In this document: in pieces, positions 2,379 through 37,983 of the stretch | Layout of the letters: each line of letters begins with the position of its first letter | How positions within the stretch are numbered: position 1 is the first letter of the stretch | Origin: Changchengzhania lutea | GTDB lineage: Bacteria; Bacteroidota; Bacteroidia; Flavobacteriales; Flavobacteriaceae | Direction of reading: 5' to 3' | Assembly (NCBI RefSeq): GCF_006974145.1 | Contig: NZ_CP039456.1 | Location: 3,286,499-3,350,498, forward strand | Length of the DNA stretch: 64,000 bases | Notes under the pieces: model-generated | Database searches by the model: none | Told to the model about the DNA's origin: nothing | The model's input: only the letters and a program-made list of their open reading frames with translations | Position numbers and translations under genes: made by a program

Positions 2379-2771
2379 TAGTTAATAAAAATTAACACTA
2401 TATGGGTCATCTAGAACAAAAGTAAATTATTTTAATCCGTTATTACACAAGCATTTTTTTCTTCATCCTGTATAATTTTAAAACCATTGGAATGAAGCAT
2501 ATTTATTACAGAAAAAGTGTATATCTACCGTAAAGGAAAAGGTGGAAAACAGTTATGAAAACTGCTAAAAAGAAGGATGATATTTTAGTAAAAAAAGATC
2601 TCACATTATAAATTTAAGAATAATTGTCCAACATTCAAAATATTTTGAAACTAAACAAAACTCTGTTAGTGTATTTAATATTAGGCTTTTAGAGGTTGAA
2701 AACAATAATTTAATTATACAAATGTAATTTTAAAGATGATAAATGTCATCTTCTTAATGATTAATCGCTTC
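2379..2771. other. Gene-free AT-rich stretch
   Basis: No convincing gene is seen on either strand. Short open stretches around 2600-2727 give a peptide without a recognisable family. The DNA looks like decayed coding sequence, in keeping with the receptor remnant immediately downstream. Confidence 0.5.
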
Positions 2772-2912
2772 TTAAAAACCATAAGCCATAGAAAAGTTAA
2801 CCCCAAACGGATGAACAGGTCTTAAACCAGCAGGCACCCTAGACACTGCATAAATAGTATTGAATAGATTTATAATATTAGAGGACAACGTAAGGTGTTT
2901 ATTTAAACAAGA
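2772..2912 (-). pseudogene. TonB-dependent receptor, C-terminal remnant
   Basis: Read on the minus strand, this stretch encodes the last ~45 residues of an outer-membrane receptor: a segment containing INLFNTIYA, then RPVHPFGVNF and the terminal aromatic SMAYGF before the stop (complement of 2772-2774). The NxFN motif and terminal Phe are typical of the last beta-strands of TonB-dependent receptors, where the C-terminal Phe serves barrel assembly. Upstream in this frame a stop is met near 2912 and no further receptor sequence is seen. This is a decayed 3' end only. Confidence 0.6.
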
Positions 2913-3096
2913 TGATATTTATCATAAAATATAACGAATAGATAGCTTTAATTTGCAAAGATAATTAGTGGAGTTTGGCTGAATATTACGTTATCTAGGT
3001 TTCAAAATAACCAAAATAGCTCAACTATTTTCAATCAAAACATAATTTTAAAAATCTAAAATTATGTTAAACAAAATTATAGTGTTAAAATTTTTG

Positions 3097-3104
3097 TAGC
3101 TTTG
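3097..3104 (+). promoter_or_regulatory. Bacteroidota -7 promoter element (TAGCTTTG)
   Basis: TAGCTTTG matches the Bacteroidota sigma-ABfr -7 consensus TAnnTTTG exactly and lies 8 nt before the ATG at 3113, implying a very short leader. No clear TTTG -33 element is visible. It is the likely start of the copper-efflux transcription unit. Confidence 0.5.
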
Positions 3105-3112
3105 TAAAACTA

Positions 3113-3526
3113 ATGAAGAAGACTTTTTATAAAATATCATCCTTTTTAATGGCATTATTAGTAATGCTCTCAACGGTGTCTTTCACAATCGAAAGTCATT
3201 ATTGTGGTGATATTTTAGTTGATGCTTCGTTCTTCGGTACAGTTGAAACTTGTGGTATGGATTCACTACAAGCTAAATCTACAAAAGATACTCTTGAAAG
3301 AAAGCATTGCTGTAATAATGAGCAAATTACCATAAATGGTCAAAATGAGTTAAGCGTTTCGTTTAATAACCTGACAAATGATCAGCAAATTTTTGTTGCA
3401 TCATTTGTATATGCTTATATTAACCTTTTTGAAGGTCTGGAAAACAAAGCATCCTCATTTTCAGAATACCCTCCACCACTTATTGTCAAGAATATCTACA
3501 AGCTTGATGAGACTTATTTAATTTGA
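3113..3526 (+). CDS. HYC_CC_PP family protein
   Basis: 137 residues: an N-terminal hydrophobic signal-like segment, then the family landmarks HYCG (about residue 29), a CC pair (about residue 67) and a PPP near the C-terminus. Proteins of this Bacteroidota family are small exported proteins of unknown function often found next to CusA/CzcA efflux genes, as here. The Cys/His content would suit metal binding or sensing in the periplasm, but this is inference. A Bacteroidota -7 box precedes the gene, and a hairpin terminator candidate lies between it and the pump gene. Confidence 0.8.
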   Translation: MKKTFYKISSFLMALLVMLSTVSFTIESHYCGDILVDASFFGTVETCGMDSLQAKSTKDTLERKHCCNNEQITINGQNELSVSFNNLTNDQQIFVASFVYAYINLFEGLENKASSFSEYPPPLIVKNIYKLDETYLI

Positions 3527-3548
3527 TTTTTAAACAATAGACTTTATT

Positions 3549-26052: not shown

Positions 26053-26619
26053 ATGAGTGAGACTATCCACATAAAAAATATGGTCTGTCCAAGGTGTATC
26101 TCTGCAGTATCGAATATTTTACAAGAGCTAGAGATTCCATATGGCTCAATTAAATTAGGAGAGGTCGAATTAACATCATCCTTAAGTATGGAAACTAAAA
26201 ATGCTTTTTCCAAAGCACTTCAAAATTCTGGCTTTAGTTTGATTGACAATCGTAAGAGTCAGCTTATTGAGCAAATGAAAACTTTGGTTGTAGATAAAAT
26301 CCACCATTCGTCCGATGATTTAGATATAAAATGGGCAGACTATATAAGTGAAAAATTAAATCTTGATTATAAATACCTAAGTTCCCTTTTTTCATCGGTT
26401 GAAAGTATTACGTTTGAGCAGTACATCATCAATCAAAAGATTGAGCGGGTAAAAGAACTCATTGTTTATGACGAATTGACTTTAAGTGAGATAGCTTTTA
26501 AACTTAACTATAGTAGTGTAGCCTATTTGAGCAATCAATTTAAAAAAGTTACCGGAATGACACCTACACAATTCAAGAAAGTCATCGATAAGAACCGTAA
26601 ATCTTTGGATGATATTTAA
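26053..26619 (+). CDS. HMA-AraC fusion transcriptional regulator, second copy
   Basis: 188 residues, same length and layout as the regulator at 19394-19960: N-terminal HMA-like domain with HIKNMVCPRCISAV (CxxC), strands LGEVELTSSLS, helix and GFSLID, then AraC HTH (FEQYIINQKIERVKELI; LTLSEIAFKLNYSSVAYLSNQF; KVTGMTPTQFKK). Sequence identity to the first copy is only moderate, so the two may sense different metals or control different operons. It precedes the YceI-like gene. Confidence 0.85.
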   Translation: MSETIHIKNMVCPRCISAVSNILQELEIPYGSIKLGEVELTSSLSMETKNAFSKALQNSGFSLIDNRKSQLIEQMKTLVVDKIHHSSDDLDIKWADYISEKLNLDYKYLSSLFSSVESITFEQYIINQKIERVKELIVYDELTLSEIAFKLNYSSVAYLSNQFKKVTGMTPTQFKKVIDKNRKSLDDI

Positions 26620-29425: not shown

Positions 29426-29896
29426 ATGAATTCAATCGAAACTATTTTATTGAACTTTTCCGAAATCAGAAGACGGAGCATAAAACTATGGAGCGAAATT
29501 CCAAATGAATACCTGAATTGGAAACCTGACGAAAATGCGTTCACGATTATCGAAATGATAAGACACGTTCTAGAAGGCGAACATCTTTTCCATAAAATCG
29601 TGGGAAATCGCGGGAATTTAGGAAATTACAAATCGCCATGGGAAGGACTAAAATACTCGGACTTAAAAAGTGAACTGAAATTTGCCGAAAATCATCGATC
29701 GGATTTTTTGAGTATGATAAGAGGACTTAAAGAATCGGATTTAGAAAGCATACGAATTGAAAGAAAAGAAGTCGGACAAAGCAAAACACTTTGCGATTAT
29801 TTAAACCGAATAGCCTATCATGAATCAGTGCATACTGGGCAAATGTTAGGTTATTTGAGAACAGCTAAAATTGATAGACCAAAAATATGGGATTGA
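29426..29896 (+). CDS. DinB family protein
   Basis: 156 residues, all helical. The metal-binding His pattern of the DinB/YfiT four-helix bundle is present: TIIEMIRHVLEGEHLFH near residue 45 and RIAYHESVHTGQMLGYL near residue 135. DinB-fold proteins include thiol-dependent transferases; the activity here is unknown. Gene-poor DNA lies on both sides. Confidence 0.85.
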   Translation: MNSIETILLNFSEIRRRSIKLWSEIPNEYLNWKPDENAFTIIEMIRHVLEGEHLFHKIVGNRGNLGNYKSPWEGLKYSDLKSELKFAENHRSDFLSMIRGLKESDLESIRIERKEVGQSKTLCDYLNRIAYHESVHTGQMLGYLRTAKIDRPKIWD

Positions 29897-30291
29897 TTAA
29901 AAGTCAGTTGCCAACATCGATAAACAGCAAATAGCGGGTATTCCAGTAAAAGTGATATTTTAGACACCAAGCAACAAACAACTAAGCCGACAAGTTTACA
30001 TCCCTACTCTGCGCTACTTGCGTCAAACAAGACCGTCACCAAACATTTATAAAAAACGAAATGATTCACCCAATAGTCGGAAATACAAGTTCTAGAAAAA
30101 CAACGTATTCAACTGAGTTGAAAAGAATAGCGAACGGAATTATCTTTTCAATTGACAAATGGAATAGCATACTATTATGATGAAATTTATTTAAATCTAA
30201 GAAATATAAAAGGGTACCTGAATACATGCACATTATAAAATTAAAATGTCAAAAAATATTATCTTCGTTCCGTTACAGCCTTGAATCCAAG
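29897..30291. other. Intergenic stretch without a supported gene
   Basis: I see no convincing coding frame, RNA or repeat. Near the end, about 30260, TATCTTCG resembles a Bacteroidota -7 box one mismatch from TAnnTTTG, suggesting that the sigma factor gene starts at 30292 rather than at the upstream ATG 30226. Confidence 0.4.
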
Positions 30292-30867
30292 ATGACAAAA
30301 ATTAAAAAATATACAGACGTTTCTTCTTTATGGTCCGATTATAAAAATGGATTGCAATTTTACATTCTAAAAAAAGTCAAGGATAAAGATATCTCTAATA
30401 ACCTGTCTCATGAGGTGCTGATGAAAATTTATAATTCTTGCTGTTCTAATAATGAAATTAAGAATATACGATCGTGGATGTTTCAAATTGCACACAACAC
30501 AACCATTGATTACTTAAAGAAAGAAAATAAATTCACGAATGAGGTTCCTGAAATTTTCGAGAAAGATGAAAATAATTCATATAAGGAAGCCGAAGAATTA
30601 ATGAAACCTCTTATTGAACTCTTACCTGAGAAGTATGCTGTTCCTCTTCAATTAGCGGATATAGAAGAGATAAAACAAGTAGAAGTTTCAAAAAAATTGA
30701 ATTTGAGTTTAACCGCTACAAAAAGTAGAATTCAAAGAGCAAGAAAACTATTAAAAGAAAAAATAATTGAATGCTGCAACTTGGAATTAGATAAAAAAGG
30801 GAACCTTCTTTCTTTAGAAATTAAACAAAGTTGCGAACCGCTACAGAATCATTTAAAAAAAGAATAA
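30292..30867 (+). CDS. sigZ: SigZ-type ECF sigma factor
   Basis: 191 residues from ATG 30292; an alternative ATG at 30226 adds 22 residues without family support. Region 2: SLWSDYKNGLQFYILKKV, HEVLMKIYNS and IRSWMFQIAHNTTIDYLKK. Region 4: LPEKYAVPLQLADIEEIKQVEVSKKLNLSLTATKSRIQRARKLLKEKI. The C-terminal tail ECCNLELDKKGNLLSLE with a Cys pair is characteristic of SigZ and could bind a metalloid or metal. It reads into two genes with matching promoters (30876-30909 and 31157-31190), suggesting that SigZ controls the peptide gene and arsM. Confidence 0.85.
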   Translation: MTKIKKYTDVSSLWSDYKNGLQFYILKKVKDKDISNNLSHEVLMKIYNSCCSNNEIKNIRSWMFQIAHNTTIDYLKKENKFTNEVPEIFEKDENNSYKEAEELMKPLIELLPEKYAVPLQLADIEEIKQVEVSKKLNLSLTATKSRIQRARKLLKEKIIECCNLELDKKGNLLSLEIKQSCEPLQNHLKKE

Positions 30868-30875
30868 TCCTTAAA

Positions 30876-30909
30876 TTTTGCATCTTTTTTGCATCTATTT
30901 AGTCTTGGT
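30876..30909 (+). promoter_or_regulatory. Putative SigZ promoter, copy 1
   Basis: TTTTGCATCTTTTT followed after 9 nt by TTAGTCTTGGT. The promoter of arsM (31157-31190) has the same two boxes at exactly the same spacing. The 34-nt element ends 28 nt before the small peptide ORF. GCRTCT and GTCTT would be the -35 and -10 boxes, 16 nt apart, a normal ECF spacing. Confidence 0.75.
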
Positions 30910-30937
30910 ATTGATATTAATATAAAATCTCGAAAAA

Positions 30938-31078
30938 ATGGAATCAAAAGAATCAAAAAAAACTTCTAAAAACTCAATTTGGAATAGGAATAGAAATTAT
31001 ACAACGTATTCATCAAAAGGACCATCATGCAGACTAGCTTCTAAAAGTATTTTTGGTGCACATCGAAGATATTGTTGA
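30938..31078 (+). CDS. Small basic Cys-containing peptide behind a SigZ-type promoter
   Basis: 46 residues, rich in Lys, Ser and Arg, with two Cys: one in GPSCRLASK and one as the very last residue (HRRYC). No signal peptide or membrane helix. The gene has its own copy of the promoter found at arsM and is closed by a strong hairpin, which argues that it is a real short transcription unit. It could bind arsenite or a metal through its thiols or be a regulatory or precursor peptide; no family recognised. Confidence 0.6.
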   Translation: MESKESKKTSKNSIWNRNRNYTTYSSKGPSCRLASKSIFGAHRRYC

Positions 31079-31107
31079 GAGCATATCTTTCATTAGATAA
31101 TTATTTG

Positions 31108-31137
31108 AAAAAACTTCCAAATTTAGAAGTTTTTTTT
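31108..31137 (+). terminator. Rho-independent terminator
   Basis: AAAAAACTTC (31108-31117) pairs perfectly with GAAGTTTTTT (31126-31135) around an 8-nt loop, with a T-run. It separates the small peptide gene from the arsM promoter. Confidence 0.75.
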
Positions 31138-31156
31138 AAAAAAATTTTTTCAAAAA

Positions 31157-31190
31157 TTTTGCGTCTTTTTAACAAGAAGTTAGTCTTGGT
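31157..31190 (+). promoter_or_regulatory. Putative SigZ promoter, copy 2 (arsM)
   Basis: TTTTGCGTCTTTTT, 9 nt, then TTAGTCTTGGT: identical to the element at 30876-30909 except G for A at one position and an unrelated 9-nt spacer. It ends 23 nt before the arsM ATG. Confidence 0.75.
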
Positions 31191-31213
31191 TAAAAACATA
31201 AAATAATATTAAA

Positions 31214-32014
31214 ATGGAAAAAATTTCAAAAAAAAACATTAGAGAATCTGTAATGGCAAACTATAGAGAAGTAGCCTTGAGAAATGATTTAGGTGAAAAC
31301 AGTAAATCGAATTGTTGCAGCGGCCCTGAAAATGATTTAACTTATATTTCTGAGGCATTGGGGTATTCTAGCTCAGAATGTACTAATGTACCGGAAGGTT
31401 CAAACTTAGGTATTGGTTGTGGTAACCCACAAGCAATTGCTTCACTTAAAAAAGGGGAAATAGTTTTAGACCTTGGTAGTGGCGCTGGATTTGATTGCTT
31501 TTTAGCCTCGAAGAGTGTCGGAGAAAAAGGACAAGTTATTGGAGTTGATATAACCGCAGAAATGATTTCAAAAGCCAGAAACAATGCAAAAAAAGGAGGT
31601 TATAATAATACAGAGTTTCGACTTGGAGTAATAGAACAACTTCCAGTTGCTGATGCAATAATTGATGTGATTATTTCGAATTGTGTCATAAACTTATCTC
31701 CAGAGAAAGAGAAGGTATTTAATGAAGCATTTAGAGTTTTGAAACCTGGTGGACGACTTGCAATATCAGATATAGTTGCTGTTTCGGAATTTCCAGACGA
31801 ATATAAAAATGATATCTCGCTAATTTGTGGTTGCATGTCTGGGGCTTCTTCAATTGATGTATTACAAACCTTTCTTTGCAACGCAGGATTTTCAGAAATT
31901 AAAATTGAATCGAAAAATAAAAGCCGAGAATTTATTAAAGATTGGAGGCCAGAATCAGGAATTGAAGATTATATTATTTCAGCAACCATTGAAGCCGTTA
32001 AAAAGAAATGGTAA
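31214..32014 (+). CDS. arsM: Arsenite S-adenosylmethionine methyltransferase ArsM
   Basis: 266 residues. Class I methyltransferase motifs (VLDLGSGAGFDCF, VIGVDITAEMI, FRVLKPGGRLAISDI) plus the Cys residues that bind As(III) in ArsM: NCCSGPEN near the N-terminus, SECTNVPEGSNLGIGCGNP, ISNCVINLSPEKE and LICGCMSGA. The enzyme methylates As(III) stepwise with SAM. No other ars genes are present in the window; it is probably controlled by the SigZ-type factor encoded upstream. Confidence 0.95.
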   Translation: MEKISKKNIRESVMANYREVALRNDLGENSKSNCCSGPENDLTYISEALGYSSSECTNVPEGSNLGIGCGNPQAIASLKKGEIVLDLGSGAGFDCFLASKSVGEKGQVIGVDITAEMISKARNNAKKGGYNNTEFRLGVIEQLPVADAIIDVIISNCVINLSPEKEKVFNEAFRVLKPGGRLAISDIVAVSEFPDEYKNDISLICGCMSGASSIDVLQTFLCNAGFSEIKIESKNKSREFIKDWRPESGIEDYIISATIEAVKKKW

Positions 32015-32070
32015 AAAATTTAGCATTGGCCTGGGCTTAAAATTCAGGTTATTCAGATTTAATGGATAGG

Positions 32071-32179
32071 CGGTCAAAGTGAGCCACCTTCAGCGAATTA
32101 AAGTGAGCATAGCAATAATTATTACAACTCATTTTATAGCTTAGGCTGAAATGATTTTTTAAATGGCTCGCTTTGACCG
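32071..32179. repeat. 109-bp segment with 16-bp inverted ends
   Basis: CGGTCAAAGTGAGCCA at 32071-32086 and its inverted match (one mismatch) at 32164-32179. The outward ends resemble termini of IS21-type elements, but no transposase of that family is present. The right end overlaps the 3' end of the minus-strand transposase-like remnant. Confidence 0.5.
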
Positions 32180-32459
32180 TTTTTTGCAATACACTCATCA
32201 ATTTTGTTATAAATATACTCAATATGTCTATCGATTTTCTTTTGATTGGAATTGTTTTTCAAAGCCTCCAGATCTTTTTTAGCAGTAGTTTGTTAAGCTG
32301 TACAATTTCCTTTTGAAGAGCTTTGATCCGTATTATTTCATCTATCGTTTCCACTTTTAATCTTGTATTCATTAGGTCTTTACCTTCGTGTTTTCTAATC
32401 TATTCATTGATTGTTGTAGGTGAGATACTATAGAGTTTTCCTAATTCGTCACTACTCAT
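32135..32459 (-). pseudogene. Transposase-like helix-turn-helix protein (IS3 OrfA type) remnant
   Basis: On the minus strand from the complement of 32457-32459: SSDELGKLYSISPTTINE, then an in-frame TAG (complement of 32400-32402, probably from TGG), then IRKHEGKDLMN, RIKALQKEIVQLNKLLLKKDLEAL and a Lys-rich tail to a stop at 32135. HTH followed by a leucine-rich coiled coil is typical of IS3 OrfA proteins. No OrfB is seen, so it is a dead remnant. Confidence 0.65.
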
Positions 32460-32540
32460 CGATTCGCAATGTCATTTGTCAAATTAAACTATATTAGCAT
32501 AATATTATTGGCAAACATTTCTTATTGTTCAATTTAACAG

Positions 32541-33095
32541 ATGAATTCAAAAGACTTAATAATCCTTACGAAGCTTAAAAATGGAGATCCTACTGCTTAC
32601 AAAGAATTGTTTGATTTGTATTATATGCCATTGAGTATCTACGCTTTAAAATATTGTGACTCTTTTCAATTGTCCGAAGACATTGTACAAGATCTATTTG
32701 TAAAACTTTGGGATGAAAAGATATATATGAAATTTGAAGGAGCTATTAGCCCCTACCTTTTTAAATCTGTAAAGAATAACACTCTACAGGTGGTTAAAAA
32801 GAAAACGAAATATCATTTCGAAGAAATTGAAGATCAAATTAATAGATTAATGGAAGTTGAAAATGTTGATATGACGAGTATTGATGAGAAAAAAAAGAAA
32901 TTATTAAAAGAAGTCGAGGCCCTACCCGAGAAAAGCAAGGAAGTTTTTAAAGCTATTGTACTTGAAAATTTAAAGTATAAGGAAGTGGCAAAGCAGTTTG
33001 GTATTTCAGTAAATACGGTTAAAACGCATTATTCAAGAGCCTTAAAGAAGCTTCGTAGCTCACTAGATGCAATCATAATGTTGCTTCTAGTTTAA
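32541..33095 (+). CDS. ECF sigma factor (FecI-like) of the SusC/D locus
   Basis: 184 residues: sigma region 2 (YKELFDLYYMPLSIYALKY, SEDIVQDLFVKLWDEK, ISPYLFKSVKNNTLQ) and region 4 (LPEKSKEVFKAIVLENLKYKEVAKQFGISVNTVKTHYSRALKKLR). The chain is close to the usual ~180-190 residues of Bacteroidota RpoE/FecI-type factors. With the FecR gene next and the STN-bearing SusC after that, it forms a transenvelope signalling set in which substrate binding at the receptor releases the sigma factor. Confidence 0.93.
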   Translation: MNSKDLIILTKLKNGDPTAYKELFDLYYMPLSIYALKYCDSFQLSEDIVQDLFVKLWDEKIYMKFEGAISPYLFKSVKNNTLQVVKKKTKYHFEEIEDQINRLMEVENVDMTSIDEKKKKLLKEVEALPEKSKEVFKAIVLENLKYKEVAKQFGISVNTVKTHYSRALKKLRSSLDAIIMLLLV

Positions 33096-33160
33096 AAAAA
33101 TCAAATTTCTTGTCACCCATTTTTGTTCTTTTGTTATATATAATATATAAGAGATCAATA

Positions 33161-34399
33161 ATGCATAAAATGAATGCCCATATTTTAAAACTTATTTCCG
33201 CTTATACTACTAATGAAATAAGTGAAAAACAATTTAACGATTTACAACAATGGTTAAATGAAAGTGTTGAAAACAAGCAAATGTTTGCCGACTACCTACA
33301 CTTTTACAAAAAATCAAGACGCATAGGACTTGCCGAAAACTTAGACAGTGATAAAGCTTGGAATACTATACTAGTAAAACTTAAAGAACCTTTACAACCA
33401 GTTGCTGCTGCTCAAAATCAAGATTTCAAAGAACCAAGTAAACCAATATTTGCACTACGCAGAAAAACATGGTTTAAATATGCTGCTGCTGCTGTGGTTG
33501 TTGGTATTTTGGCATCGGGTTATTTCTTCAGGTACAATTTCTTTAATAGATCTATAGACGACAATGCTAATACCACAATTATTGTAAATAACGACATCCA
33601 AACTGGTACAGATAAGGCCACCTTAACTCTTTCCGATGGTTCAGAAGTCGCTTTGGAAAAAGGGCAAAAGTATGTTGCAAATAATTTATCGAGTAACGGT
33701 GAAGAAATAATTTATGAGGTCACATCAACGACAAAGCCAGAAATAGTATACAATTATTTGACTATCCCAAGAGGAGGACAATTTCATATTACATTAGCCG
33801 ACGGTACAGAAGTATGGCTTAATTCAGAAAGCCAATTAAAATACCCCGTAGCGTTTATTGACGGAGACATCCGCCAAGTGGAACTAATGTATGGAGAAGC
33901 TTATTTTGATGTCTCACCAAGTATAAATCATAATGGAGCAGGATTCAAGGTTTATCATAAGATGCAAGAAGTTCAAGTTTTAGGTACCGAATTCAATATC
34001 AAAGCCTATAAAGGTGAAATAAATATCTATACAACATTGGTTGAGGGAAAAGTTGCGATTGATAACGACATTGTAGTTAAAAACTTAAAGCCTAGTGAGC
34101 AATCAATTCTAAATATTGGGAATAAAAATATAATTATTGCTTCGGTTGATATTTATGATGAAACCTCATGGAAAAGCGGGGTCTTTAGTTTTAAAAACAA
34201 ACCTTTAAAAGATATCATGAAAGTATTATCAAGATGGTATGATACGGAAGTGTTTTTTTTAAATAAAGATCTGGAAGAAGTCAGGTTTAGAGGAGTGTTG
34301 AGCAAGGATCAAAATTTGGAAGATATTCTATTAACTATAAAAAACACTAATTTTATTAATGCCTATGAAATAAACAACAAAAAAATAATCTTAAAATAA
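33161..34399 (+). CDS. FecR-type anti-sigma factor
   Basis: ATG 33161 is preferred over the TTG at 33110 because the extension is merely hydrophobic. 412 residues. The N-terminal cytosolic segment (LKLISAYTTNEISEKQFNDLQQWL) binds the sigma factor. A membrane helix (~105-125, WFKYAAAAVVVGILASGYF) follows, then the periplasmic FecR domain (LTLSDGSEVALEKGQ; IPRGGQFHITLADGTEVWLNSES; GEAYFDV; FNIKAY) and a C-terminal DUF4974/STN-like part (NKPLKDIMKVLSRWYDTEVFF). It receives the signal from SusC. Confidence 0.93.
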   Translation: MHKMNAHILKLISAYTTNEISEKQFNDLQQWLNESVENKQMFADYLHFYKKSRRIGLAENLDSDKAWNTILVKLKEPLQPVAAAQNQDFKEPSKPIFALRRKTWFKYAAAAVVVGILASGYFFRYNFFNRSIDDNANTTIIVNNDIQTGTDKATLTLSDGSEVALEKGQKYVANNLSSNGEEIIYEVTSTTKPEIVYNYLTIPRGGQFHITLADGTEVWLNSESQLKYPVAFIDGDIRQVELMYGEAYFDVSPSINHNGAGFKVYHKMQEVQVLGTEFNIKAYKGEINIYTTLVEGKVAIDNDIVVKNLKPSEQSILNIGNKNIIIASVDIYDETSWKSGVFSFKNKPLKDIMKVLSRWYDTEVFFLNKDLEEVRFRGVLSKDQNLEDILLTIKNTNFINAYEINNKKIILK

Positions 34400-34403
34400 A
34401 AAT

Positions 34404-34454
34404 AAAAGGGAACGAAGTTTACACCGTTCAAAGTACCACTATCACTCCCTTTTT
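34404..34454 (+). terminator. Stem-loop between fecR and susC
   Basis: AAAAGGGA pairs with TCCCTTTT, enclosing an inner GAACG/CGTTC stem, followed by T-rich DNA. It may end the regulatory transcript and separate it from susC expression. Confidence 0.5.
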
Positions 34455-34494
34455 GAGTATTAATTAATTGTTTAATCAACTAACATGCAAATTT

Positions 34495-37400
34495 ATGAAA
34501 ATTAATTTAACCAAAGTTTTTTTCTGTCGTAAAAAAAAGCTCTTAATCAACATCATGAGAACTTTTATTTTCTTGTTCTGTACCACAATTTTTGGTTTTT
34601 CGTCAGATAATATGTTATCGCAAAACACAAAAATTGAAATAGATATAGATACAACCCTCACCATCGATGAGGTTTTTGAGTTAATTCGTAACCAAACCGA
34701 TTACACTTTTATCTATCAAGAAGATTTATTTAAAAATGCACCAAAAGTGTATCTTAAAAAAGGAATAATCAGAGCCAATAAGCTCCTCGAAAGAAGTCTT
34801 AATTATGGGGATTTTAACTTTAGCCTGTCTGATAAAAAAACAATTATTTTAGAAAAAAGCCCTGATGATAATGGCTCGCAGCCACAGCGGCAAATTAGTG
34901 GGACAGTTACAGATAAAAACGGAATGCCCTTACCAGGAGTAAATATTATTATTAAGGAAAAAAACAAGGGTGTTGTCAGTGATTTTGAGGGGAGTTATAG
35001 CATAGATGCCAACACTGATGATATATTGGTTTTTTCTTATTTAGGGTACGCCACTCAAGAGATTAAAGTAGATAATACAGTAACCTTAAATATTGTATTG
35101 CTAGCAAATTTTGATGAGTTAAGCGAAGTTATTATTACTGCAATTGGCACAAAACAATTTGTTGACGAATCTGGGTCAACCAGCTCCATTGTTAAAACCG
35201 AAGGTATTGTTAAGTCAGGCGAGGCAGGAGTTATTAATGCTTTGGCAGGTAAGGCGTCTGGTGTAAGAATTGGGAAATCAAATGGCGATCCAGGTTCAGG
35301 GTCTGCAATCCAAATAAGAGGTGCCAATACCATTCAAGGCGCAAGCCAACCTTTAATTATACTCGATGGCGTTCCTGTGAGCAATGACAATATTGGGAAT
35401 GTTACTATTAGCCAACAATCTAGATTAGATGATATCAATTCCAAGGATATCGAATCGGTACAAGTTTTAAAAGGAGCATCGGCAGCAGCACTATGGGGTT
35501 CACGAGCCGCCAACGGTGTAATTGTTATTACCACTAAAAATGGAAGCTTGAACCGTAAACCAACAGTACAGTATTCCTTTACACAATCGTTTGATGAGAT
35601 TAACGTAAGAACCCCATTGCAAAATAAATTTGGACAAGGACGAGGTGGTGTTAGAGCAATAAATAGAAGTGAATCATGGGGAGATAAGATTTCAGACCGT
35701 TCAGGAGGTCCAGATGAAGTAGATGAAACCGGACGGTATTTTCAATCAAATACCACAGAAAATATATACTATCCCGTAACTGCAAAAAACTCCAAGGAAA
35801 CCTTTGTTGATAGTAACTACGATCAAGTGTTCCAAACTGGTGTTTATGCCCAACACAACATCTCTGTAAGTGGTGGAGGTGAAAAGGCATCGTATTTTTT
35901 TAGTTATGAAAACCTTAACCAAGAGGGCATCATAAAAAATTTCGATTACAAACGTCAAAACTTACGGCTCAATACGCAGGCACAACTTACCAATTGGTTA
36001 AGCTGGAGCAATAAAGTATCTTATACCAACACAGATTCAAATAGGATAATACAAGCCGGAGAAAACACAAATGGCATTTTGTTGGGGCTTTTACGAACTG
36101 CAGCAGATTTTGATATTTCAGATTATATTGGTACTTATGTAGCAAGTAATGGCGATGTGTTTCCTGACAGGCAGCGATCTTATCGCAGACAATTCGGAGA
36201 ATCTGAAAATCCTATTTATAACAATCCGCTATGGACTATAAATGAGCAGAAAGCACCTAATGAAGTCAATCGGTTTATTATTTCCCCTGAACTGACCATC
36301 GCTCCGATTAATTGGTTGAAGATTATTTTGAGAGGTGGCTTGGATTATTATTCAGATTTCAGGAGCTCTTTTTTCCCTATAGGTTCAGCAAGTGGTGCGA
36401 GAAGTGCCGGTTTATGGACACAAACCGATATAACAAGCCGGGAACTTAATTTTGATGGCATAGTTATCGCCACACAGGACATTAATAAGGATGTAGAAGT
36501 TTCAGCCACATTAGGATGGAACTTTAATGACAGACAACGGTTTTCCAATACCAATACCGTTAGTCCATTTGCTGTAAATTCCAGCCTTCCTACACCCGAT
36601 CTTAACCCAGATCAAGCAGCGACATCTTGGAATAGGAACATACGAAAAATCCGTTCTAATAGAGGATATGGTATTTTGGCGTTCAATTTATTTGATCAAT
36701 TGTTCGTCAATGTTTCGGGAGCTTTAGAGGCCTCTTCCACTATAAAAGGAAGCTTCTTTTACCCTTCGGCAGATTTGGCTTGGCAATTTAGCGATTTAAT
36801 TGATTCGGAAACTTTAAGCTTTGGCAAATTAAGGTTTGCATGGGGGAAAGTAGGTATACAACCCGCACCTTATAAGTTTGATACCTTGGCATCAACTGGT
36901 TTTTCAACTTTTGGAGGCAGCTTTTTAGTAGATTCGGAAAAAGGAAATTCAAATTTAAAACCTGAAATAAAGACCGAATGGGAAGTAGGAACAGATTTAA
37001 GGTTTTTTAAGAACCGAATTAGTTTGGGACTAACCTACTACAAAAATGAAACAAAGGATATCCTTTTTGCGGTTAATACCAATCCGAGTTCAGGATTTAG
37101 CACAAATTATACTAATGCTGCCGTAATTGAGAATAAAGGTTTTGAAGTTGATCTTAATGGTAAAATAATTGACAATCAAGAATTAAAAATTTCACTTTAT
37201 GCAAACTTTAACGACAATAAAAATGAAGTGGTTGATATTGCTGGTGCCGAAACCGTTGACATTGGTGGAACTTCCAAAGCGGTAAAAGGATTTCCAATGA
37301 GTTCTTTCTGGTTACCAGGCACACTCCGTAACGAAGACAACAGTTTGGCACTTGATGCAAATGGTTTTCCGCAATTGGACACGGATAGACGTGTAATTGG

Positions 37401-37983
37401 CGACCCAAATCCAGATTGGCGCGGCGGCTTGGGCATGGAACTGAAATGGAAAAACCTCGATTTTAGCTTTCTGTTCGAGCACTCACAAGGTGGTGAGTAT
37501 ATAAACAGGACCAGAGTTGTACTTTATGGTTTTGGAGTTCATGAAGATGTTGCTAATGAAGTTACACTTACCGAAGATTTAACAAACTTAAATGGTAATG
37601 TATTCACTGCTGGGACAACAGTTCGTGGCAATATAAAAGATTTTGGTGCTGGAAACGTACTTCTGGATGAGTCTTGGTACCGTGGCATTGGAGGCGGTCT
37701 AGGTTTCAATAAAGTAAATGACCTATATATCGAGGATGCTACATGGACCAAATTGCGAAACGTGACCTTGGGATATACCTTTAACCAACTCAAAGTGTCG
37801 TCTAAACTTTCACTCGAATCTTTAAGGATATCGGTTACAGGTAGAGACCTTATCCTTTGGACCGATCTGGTGGGAGTTGATCCGGAAACTAACAATTATG
37901 GTGTTAGTAATGCTTTTGGGATGAATTATTTTAATAATCCGGGCACCCGATCCATATTGTTCAATCTTCAAGCTAATTTTTAA
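34495..37983 (+). CDS. susC: SusC/RagA TonB-linked outer-membrane receptor with STN domain
   Basis: ATG 34495 (open upstream to TTG 34468); 1162 residues. Signal region, STN secretin/TonB short domain (~40-115; TLTIDEVFELIRNQTDYTFIY), carboxypeptidase-like domain (ISGTVTDKNGMPLPGVNIII ... YLGYATQEI), plug with the SusC signature VLKGASAAALWGSRAANG and VIVITTKNG, then a long TonB-dependent beta-barrel ending in LQANF. It imports a ligand captured by SusD using TonB energy. The STN domain couples it to the FecR encoded upstream. Substrate not certain; neighbours suggest peptide or amino-acid derived material. Confidence 0.95.
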   Translation: MKINLTKVFFCRKKKLLINIMRTFIFLFCTTIFGFSSDNMLSQNTKIEIDIDTTLTIDEVFELIRNQTDYTFIYQEDLFKNAPKVYLKKGIIRANKLLERSLNYGDFNFSLSDKKTIILEKSPDDNGSQPQRQISGTVTDKNGMPLPGVNIIIKEKNKGVVSDFEGSYSIDANTDDILVFSYLGYATQEIKVDNTVTLNIVLLANFDELSEVIITAIGTKQFVDESGSTSSIVKTEGIVKSGEAGVINALAGKASGVRIGKSNGDPGSGSAIQIRGANTIQGASQPLIILDGVPVSNDNIGNVTISQQSRLDDINSKDIESVQVLKGASAAALWGSRAANGVIVITTKNGSLNRKPTVQYSFTQSFDEINVRTPLQNKFGQGRGGVRAINRSESWGDKISDRSGGPDEVDETGRYFQSNTTENIYYPVTAKNSKETFVDSNYDQVFQTGVYAQHNISVSGGGEKASYFFSYENLNQEGIIKNFDYKRQNLRLNTQAQLTNWLSWSNKVSYTNTDSNRIIQAGENTNGILLGLLRTAADFDISDYIGTYVASNGDVFPDRQRSYRRQFGESENPIYNNPLWTINEQKAPNEVNRFIISPELTIAPINWLKIILRGGLDYYSDFRSSFFPIGSASGARSAGLWTQTDITSRELNFDGIVIATQDINKDVEVSATLGWNFNDRQRFSNTNTVSPFAVNSSLPTPDLNPDQAATSWNRNIRKIRSNRGYGILAFNLFDQLFVNVSGALEASSTIKGSFFYPSADLAWQFSDLIDSETLSFGKLRFAWGKVGIQPAPYKFDTLASTGFSTFGGSFLVDSEKGNSNLKPEIKTEWEVGTDLRFFKNRISLGLTYYKNETKDILFAVNTNPSSGFSTNYTNAAVIENKGFEVDLNGKIIDNQELKISLYANFNDNKNEVVDIAGAETVDIGGTSKAVKGFPMSSFWLPGTLRNEDNSLALDANGFPQLDTDRRVIGDPNPDWRGGLGMELKWKNLDFSFLFEHSQGGEYINRTRVVLYGFGVHEDVANEVTLTEDLTNLNGNVFTAGTTVRGNIKDFGAGNVLLDESWYRGIGGGLGFNKVNDLYIEDATWTKLRNVTLGYTFNQLKVSSKLSLESLRISVTGRDLILWTDLVGVDPETNNYGVSNAFGMNYFNNPGTRSILFNLQANF

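Follow-up and report, generated by a model that had tools for sequence, protein, structure and literature searches.

Two nearly identical stretches of 34 nt stand in front of two consecutive genes of Changchengzhania lutea, directly behind a gene for an ECF sigma factor. The locus raises the question of whether this sigma factor reads the two stretches, and to which signal the genes behind them respond. In this study, we analysed the surrounding 64,000 nt of contig NZ_CP039456.1 (hereafter the window) and compared it with related loci in other genomes. We think it probable that the locus is a two-promoter SigZ regulon, in which the sigma factor controls a small Cys peptide and arsM; the most likely signal is arsenite or a similar (semi)metal that binds thiols. 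The features concerned are as follows.

30292..30867, + strand: sigZ-like gene for an ECF sigma factor of 191 aa, with C161, C162 and C181 in the tail; the start was taken from relatives, which align at MTK.
30876..30909, + strand: predicted SigZ-type promoter 1, with -35 TGCATC at 30879-30884, a T-tract and -10 GTCT at 30902-30905; it would serve the peptide gene.
30938..31078, + strand: gene for a basic peptide of 46 residues that ends in RRYC and has two invariant Cys, studied by an alignment of eight sequences, by dN/dS and by a profile search of 397 genomes.
31107..31136, + strand: A+T-rich hairpin followed by T, a possible terminator between the peptide gene and arsM (fold -8.9 kcal/mol, z -2.6; coordinates picked by eye).
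31157..31190, + strand: predicted SigZ-type promoter 2, with -35 TGCGTC at 31160-31165 and -10 GTCT at 31183-31186; it would serve arsM.
31214..32014, + strand: arsM, arsenite methyltransferase of 266 aa (NF008823, 341.2 bits against a cut-off of 263).

An earlier note, made from the letters of this DNA, had placed a SigZ-type gene directly upstream of the elements, and the family models lend this support. The open reading frame spans 30226-30867, and alignment with relatives puts the likely start at 30292. The SigZ models are the two best NCBIfam matches of the protein, both under the curated cut-off (NF007215, 152.1 against 212 bits; TIGR02959, 144.5 against 168.65 bits), and because of these scores we named it SigZ-like. 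It has the regions 2 and 4 only of an ECF (group IV) factor, with Sigma70_r4_2 and TIGR02937 over their cut-offs and Sigma70_r2 just below (20.6 of 24 bits).

Promoter 1 starts 8 nt past the stop codon of the sigma gene. The two 34-nt elements of the earlier note, at 30876-30909 and 31157-31190 and 23-28 nt before two start codons, were confirmed in coordinates and letters; both are exact to the pattern, and their 9-nt spacers are unrelated. ECF factors bind two short boxes approximately 16-17 nt apart. The elements can be read as promoters of this kind, with a -35 box TGCRTC, 17 nt that open with a T-tract and a -10 box GTCT, and both have a short leader to the ATG, 28 nt for the peptide (ATG 30938) and 23 nt for arsM (ATG 31214). 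When up to three mismatches were allowed, the pattern matched twice in the window and never in 100 shuffles, and the whole 4.13-Mb genome gave the same pair, with no match of the reversed pattern. A shorter core pattern with one mismatch allowed gave no additional site in this 4.13-Mb genome. A chance repeat was rejected as the source of the pair on the basis of the shuffles, the whole genome and the 397-genome scan with reversed controls, and an RNA element was rejected because no Rfam family reached the gathering threshold over 29800-32600.

In the product of arsM, the Cys of GCGNP, SNCVINLSP and CGCMSGA align with Cys of the solved arsenite methyltransferase 5evj, and we take these three to be the catalytic ones, so the frame 31214-32014 has both the family score and the three Cys of an ArsM. 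The peptide gene and arsM probably form separate transcription units under one promoter each, as suggested by the hairpin and the T that follows it, despite a consensus terminator scan between the two genes in which none was called. A frame of 44 aa at 31072-31206 overlaps the hairpin and box 2 and was taken as spurious. Farther out in the window, 26053-26619 encodes an AraC-type regulator whose N-terminal MVCPRC is reminiscent of a heavy-metal-associated domain, with a weak match to CopZ (E 0.0044). Past arsM, the stretch 32541-37983 contains another ECF sigma gene together with genes for a FecR-like protein and a SusC-like receptor, both identified by eye, and looks like an ordinary transport regulon.

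SigZ relatives were sought in 397 Flavobacteriaceae genomes and in a genome collection (seven loci, one on the same contig as L004), and the nearest 16 distinct loci were L003, L005-L012 and L033-L039. Some form of the element adjoins sigZ in all 16. The strict pattern had 12 sites in 11 of the 397 Flavobacteriaceae genomes and none in the reversed control; nine sites adjoin sigZ, one lies elsewhere in a SigZ genome, and two lie within genes. The strict form was found in 9 of the 11 genomes with the closest SigZ, a line set at E up to 5.6e-43 after seeing the data, and in 2 of the 386 others (Fisher p 5e-15). The two closest-SigZ genomes that lack the strict form carry variants, GTCATG in L011 and TGTGTC in L013. 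The earlier note had asked for such a scan and had held that boxes missing from related genomes would speak against a SigZ-type promoter pair. The boxes do recur beside related sigZ genes, and they precede arsM in four other loci, so that the reading as SigZ-type promoters survives and has good comparative support.

A looser pattern, picked after inspecting the elements of the near loci, was found in 32 of 40 SigZ loci (37 sites, 0.03 expected from shuffles). Of 31 additional loci, most of which came from a search across the phylum, 16 had it too (0.02 expected); this set, 30 plus L089, is not fully held out because some of its loci belong to the window's own family and some are repeats (L082 of L030, L084 of L023, and L083 with L089). 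Overall, the element was present in 47 of 72 distinct SigZ loci, counted without the duplicates L004, L082, L083, L084, L111 and L116 and with each locus a fetched stretch of mostly about 3.5 kb. The 39 control loci, all from the window's genome and a few of them overlapping, gave one match, which is the window's own arsM promoter. The sole match in L115 lies 2.9 kb from the sigma gene, and matches within genes in L040, L042 and L104 were taken as chance. The other 25 of the 72 loci lack the element, including those of Vibrio and Hymenobacter and the second SigZ-like gene of the window's genome, and seven loci without it form a supported clade in the tree of the 72 proteins (L064-L067, L074, L086 and L087). 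Among 65 sites, a set that includes chance matches inside genes, positions left free by the pattern were also conserved, with an additional T at two positions (60 and 62 sites) and an A or C preceding GTC (59 sites); most of the spacer was near background composition. With one mismatch allowed, one reversed-control match was obtained across 10 genomes (in G007). Sites adjoin SigZ-type genes in three phyla: Bacteroidota, Bacillota (two Priestia plasmids) and Pseudomonadota (Citrobacter and Klebsiella plasmids).

The genes under the element were compared by reading the loci, and family models were run on example loci (L012, L033 and L069 for ArsI/CadI, L039 for the flavoprotein, L015 for DUF2703, and L022, L070 and L078 for the peptides). 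The targets in the 16 near loci were an RR[YF]C peptide (8), arsM (3), a flavoprotein of 439 residues (5), an ArsI/CadI-type protein (5) and other small CC peptides (2; L008 and L009). ArsM over the cut-off stands under the element in five loci; besides the window, arsM follows the same kind of element in L034, L035, L060 and L061. The arsM-bearing loci occupy two distant parts of the 72-protein tree. The ArsI/CadI-type proteins of L033 and L069 pass the cut-off of the model, and that of L012 lies just under it. The flavoprotein tested (L039) is weakly like YpdA and ArsO, and in L006, L007 and L038 the promoter leads directly to the flavoprotein gene, with the peptide absent.

In 12 more distant Flavobacteriaceae loci, the element precedes a peptide of 33-34 residues (43 as framed in L017) with many CxC, which is encoded just upstream of sigZ, between promoter and sigma gene (L014, L017, L018, L021-L023, L025-L027 and L030-L032); the same order was seen in L080, L081 and L105. 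These peptides hold approximately eleven Cys, mostly in CxC, and are called metallothionein-like by appearance only; the one run against the models, that of L022, had no Pfam or NCBIfam match. DUF2703-like proteins were found in L015 and L028 (L015 was checked and is just under the cut-off), and an MTH895/ArsE-like thioredoxin lies behind the variant box of L013. Elsewhere in the phylum, the targets were arsM in L060 and L061 (over the cut-off), ArsI/CadI in L069 (over the cut-off), Cys-rich peptides in L070, L072 and L078 (those of L070 and L078 matched no family model), and sigZ itself in L062, L072, L077 and L085. There were also targets that are not arsenic genes, namely aldo/keto reductase, PhzF, MATE and secreted proteins. 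A site in genome G007 stands ahead of an ArsP_1 permease gene. Two further loci of the same genome (L098 and L106) carry additional SigZ-type sites, one ahead of an alpha/beta-hydrolase-like gene and one ahead of the gene for a small protein whose start looks signal-like, which suggests a larger regulon there. The element also precedes a phzF-like gene in L088, and the second SigZ-like gene of the window's genome lies before a phzF-like gene with the element absent (L089, G000:C1:977000-982500, about 2379-2996).

Related sigma genes also adjoin ars genes on one Klebsiella and one Citrobacter plasmid. In L058 and L116, a site lies approximately 32 nt before an ArsP_1 permease gene, and arsA, arsD, arsC and arsR are upstream in the Klebsiella record (L116). 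The two Priestia plasmids carry a like element, with GTCA replacing GTCT, beside sigZ and before a divergent aldo/keto reductase gene. Four neighbourhoods have no element near: in Citrobacter Y19 the sigma gene comes after arsC and acr3; in Hymenobacter it lies approximately 2 kb from arsC and acr3; on an Arenibacter plasmid it precedes genes for an ArsE-like thioredoxin and an ArsP_1 permease; and in Vibrio (L112 and L113, about 2682-3546) the SigZ-type frame and an ArsR-type gene overlap, with an ArsP_1 permease gene divergent to the former in L112. The identity to the window's sigma factor is only 24-28% for the Enterobacteriaceae and Hymenobacter proteins (26-28% for the Enterobacteriaceae, which form a long branch in the 72-protein tree), so the label SigZ-type is uncertain for the plasmid factors. 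The target list and these neighbourhoods together point to arsenic and thiophilic metals as the common theme of the targets in sequence terms, not as their sole content. The leaning of a small regulon towards arsenic and thiophilic metals, as proposed in the earlier note, is supported by ArsM, ArsI/CadI, the ArsP-type permease and the Cys peptides.

The product of the first gene had been described as an undescribed basic peptide ending in Cys, and it proved to belong to a real family of eight loci in which both Cys are invariant. Neither Pfam nor NCBIfam gave a match to the 46-residue frame at E up to 0.1. In the alignment of the eight peptides, gaps are confined to the first seven columns, and M1, K8, S25, C31, F39, G40, R43, R44 and C46 are invariant. 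Pairwise dN/dS was below 1 in 26 of 28 pairs, and the two pairs above 1 both have low dS (L034-L037, 1.02; L037-L039, 1.66). A profile of the eight sequences, with at most 18 candidates scored per genome, found the peptide in 3 of the 397 family genomes, each time directly behind sigZ, and the promoter element precedes it in 8 of the 16 near loci, which were fetched via sigZ. A tblastn search of plasmid and phage records gave no match at E up to 0.01, and the predicted structure was uninformative (pLDDT 55). Judged by these sequences, the peptide is a conserved and previously undescribed family, known from eight loci and met only directly behind sigZ.

Studies have shown that CorE and CorE2 of Myxococcus xanthus (ECF44/ECF238) sense metals with no anti-sigma partner, bear Cys in a C-terminal extension and act in metal homeostasis, as described in the part of the source consulted (PMC8999054). 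By this description, the tail Cys of the present sigma factors and the fact that no anti-sigma gene was noticed beside them resemble CorE, which is a precedent for a metal-sensing sigma tail. The window's protein is set apart by description, since its tail is a short CC-hairpin-C and the SigZ models fit it best; the CXC motif in the linker of regions 2 and 4, a CorE trait, is absent from the whole protein.

At least two Cys were present in 71 of 72 located SigZ tails (the exception is L088), and the spacing C-x12-30-C was present in 64. These 72 tails come from 74 distinct sigma frames, with the near-identical plasmid pairs L056/L111 and L058/L116 counted twice; of the two remaining frames, L057 has at least two Cys and L083, the second SigZ-like gene of the window's genome, has one. 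Only 2 of 25 other ECF-model hits of the window's genome have at least two tail Cys, in a control where the last 50 residues were used when the anchor was absent and where approximately 2 of the 25 are unlikely to be genuine ECF factors. The earlier note had pointed to a conserved C-terminal Cys pair, and this stands in part: in an alignment of 33 sequences the first Cys past region 4 hardly varies, and a later tail Cys persists as well, but many of the closest relatives have Ser, Met, Val or some other residue in place of the second Cys of ECC. The predicted structure of the sigma factor had a mean pLDDT of 79.8 and a pTM of 0.45, with block means of 71-76 over residues 161-190. As read from the topology of the modelled hairpin, the tail could bring C161, C162 and C181 together.

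On reading through the fetched loci by eye, no anti-sigma gene was noticed next to sigZ. For this reason, and because the Cys tail is nearly universal, the sigma factor itself or the control of sigZ transcription may do the sensing. Given the tail Cys, the hairpin model, the CorE precedent and the fact that no anti-sigma gene was noticed, direct metalloid sensing by the SigZ tail is plausible; in Vibrio, the ArsR-type gene could set the level of sigZ instead.

At the level of sequence, we regard the promoter element and its association with SigZ-type genes as established, together with the gene content and the conservation of the peptide. From them we infer the signal, the sensing step, the function of the peptide and SigZ as the reader of the element. 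In the mechanism that we propose, the SigZ-like ECF factor would direct RNA polymerase to the two near-identical promoters (TGCRTC, T-tract, GTCT), which would drive two transcription units, one for the 46-residue Cys peptide and one for arsM. The ArsM product would methylate As(III). The signal would be arsenite or a related thiol-binding (semi)metal, perceived either by the Cys tail of SigZ or through the control of sigZ transcription. The two thiols of the peptide most likely serve to buffer the metalloid or hand it over, by analogy with the metallothionein-like peptides whose place the peptide would take; we favour this role because other SigZ loci hold Cys-rich peptides in a like position.

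The strongest competitor, to which we give serious but somewhat smaller weight, accepts the SigZ regulon as real and lets it respond to thiol or electrophile stress in general, or to a different soft metal (Cu, Cd, Hg or Sb), with arsM as one effector among several. The breadth of the targets fits such a response, as they include metallothionein-like peptides, aldo/keto reductase, the DUF2703-like protein (L015), the MTH895/ArsE-like thioredoxin (L013), PhzF and MATE, and the ArsI/CadI model itself is titled as a broad heavy-metal family; against it, ArsM and ArsI/CadI turn up as targets in widely separated branches of the SigZ tree, and related sigma genes adjoin ars genes on plasmids. It is improbable that the methyltransferase acts on Sb, Se, Te or an organic molecule and that the regulon is not about arsenic: an ArsM family assigned from sequence alone leaves room for other substrates, but the score above the curated arsenite methyltransferase cut-off and the three Cys aligned to those of the solved enzyme argue for As(III). 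For the preferred arsenite reading, the main rival on the side of the peptide is a regulatory role, such as a feedback anti-sigma or a SigZ cofactor in place of a metalloid-binding effector. We consider this rather unlikely, since half of the near loci do without the peptide (for example L006, L007 and L038) and unrelated Cys peptides stand in a like position at other SigZ loci, although a regulator would suit a basic peptide under a SigZ-type promoter that was found only directly behind sigZ (3 of 397 genomes; 8 of 16 near loci fetched via sigZ).

Very little weight is given to the reading in which a different factor recognises the boxes, or in which they form a duplicated element with no promoter function. 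Some SigZ loci have no box, and the promoter reading itself comes from sequence, which would allow it; the ECF geometry, the co-occurrence with SigZ (Fisher p 5e-15), the spacer of near-background composition, the lack of an Rfam family at the gathering threshold and the sites beside SigZ-type genes in three phyla all speak for promoters read by SigZ. A wider reading may be offered tentatively, as a possibility that we hold well below the regulon itself. SigZ-type factors might be a cytosolic class of metalloid-sensing sigma factors in at least three phyla, in which As(III) would bridge the Cys at the base of the hairpin and activate the factor with no anti-sigma, and the first target would be a lineage-specific thiol peptide (here the new RR[YF]C family) that would capture the metalloid and deliver it to ArsM.

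Canonical ars operons under ArsR repression share the effectors ArsM, ArsI and ArsP with the present loci; in contrast, the control here would lie with a sigma factor that has its own promoter type, and acr3 of the window's genome lies elsewhere, with no box. Bacterial metallothioneins are likewise small Cys peptides encoded by the first gene under a control element, but the window's peptide has two Cys and no CxC, so that it is not metallothionein-like in the sense of several CxC motifs, and it is basic and has no Pfam or NCBIfam family. In searches limited to open-access literature, no listed paper linked SigZ to arsenic or metals by its title or abstract. One Bacillus genome paper (PMC4138018) reportedly mentions SigZ, arsenic and sigma factor together, and another paper (PMC2848651) is said to treat the control of arsenite oxidase.

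Bacillus subtilis SigZ is like the window's protein in that TIGR02959 and NF007215 are the best models for the latter and in a shared C at -34 of the promoter; it differs in that the window's protein is under both cut-offs and that the Priestia SigZ falls in the other half of the tree. A structural study of SigW gives C at -34 for the SigZ promoter of B. subtilis and A for the SigW promoter (PMC6713349), and the TGC of the window's element agrees with this C. A promoter specificity shared with SigZ is possible; the comparison covered the same kind of element at SigZ-type loci of three phyla and, for B. subtilis, the C at -34.

In the table of a 2020 review, which cites the gene report of 1997, the function of SigZ from B. 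subtilis is entered as 'Not yet determined' (PMC7522486), and because of this entry the present comparison makes the role of SigZ a testable question. It provides SigZ-type factors with a promoter, a list of targets and a probable signal, each of them directly testable. It also brings to light families of small Cys peptides that are missing from Pfam and NCBIfam. If it is true that the Cys tail senses the metalloid, SigZ would be the equivalent of ArsR-type control among sigma factors, and its compactness would suit the construction of arsenic sensors.
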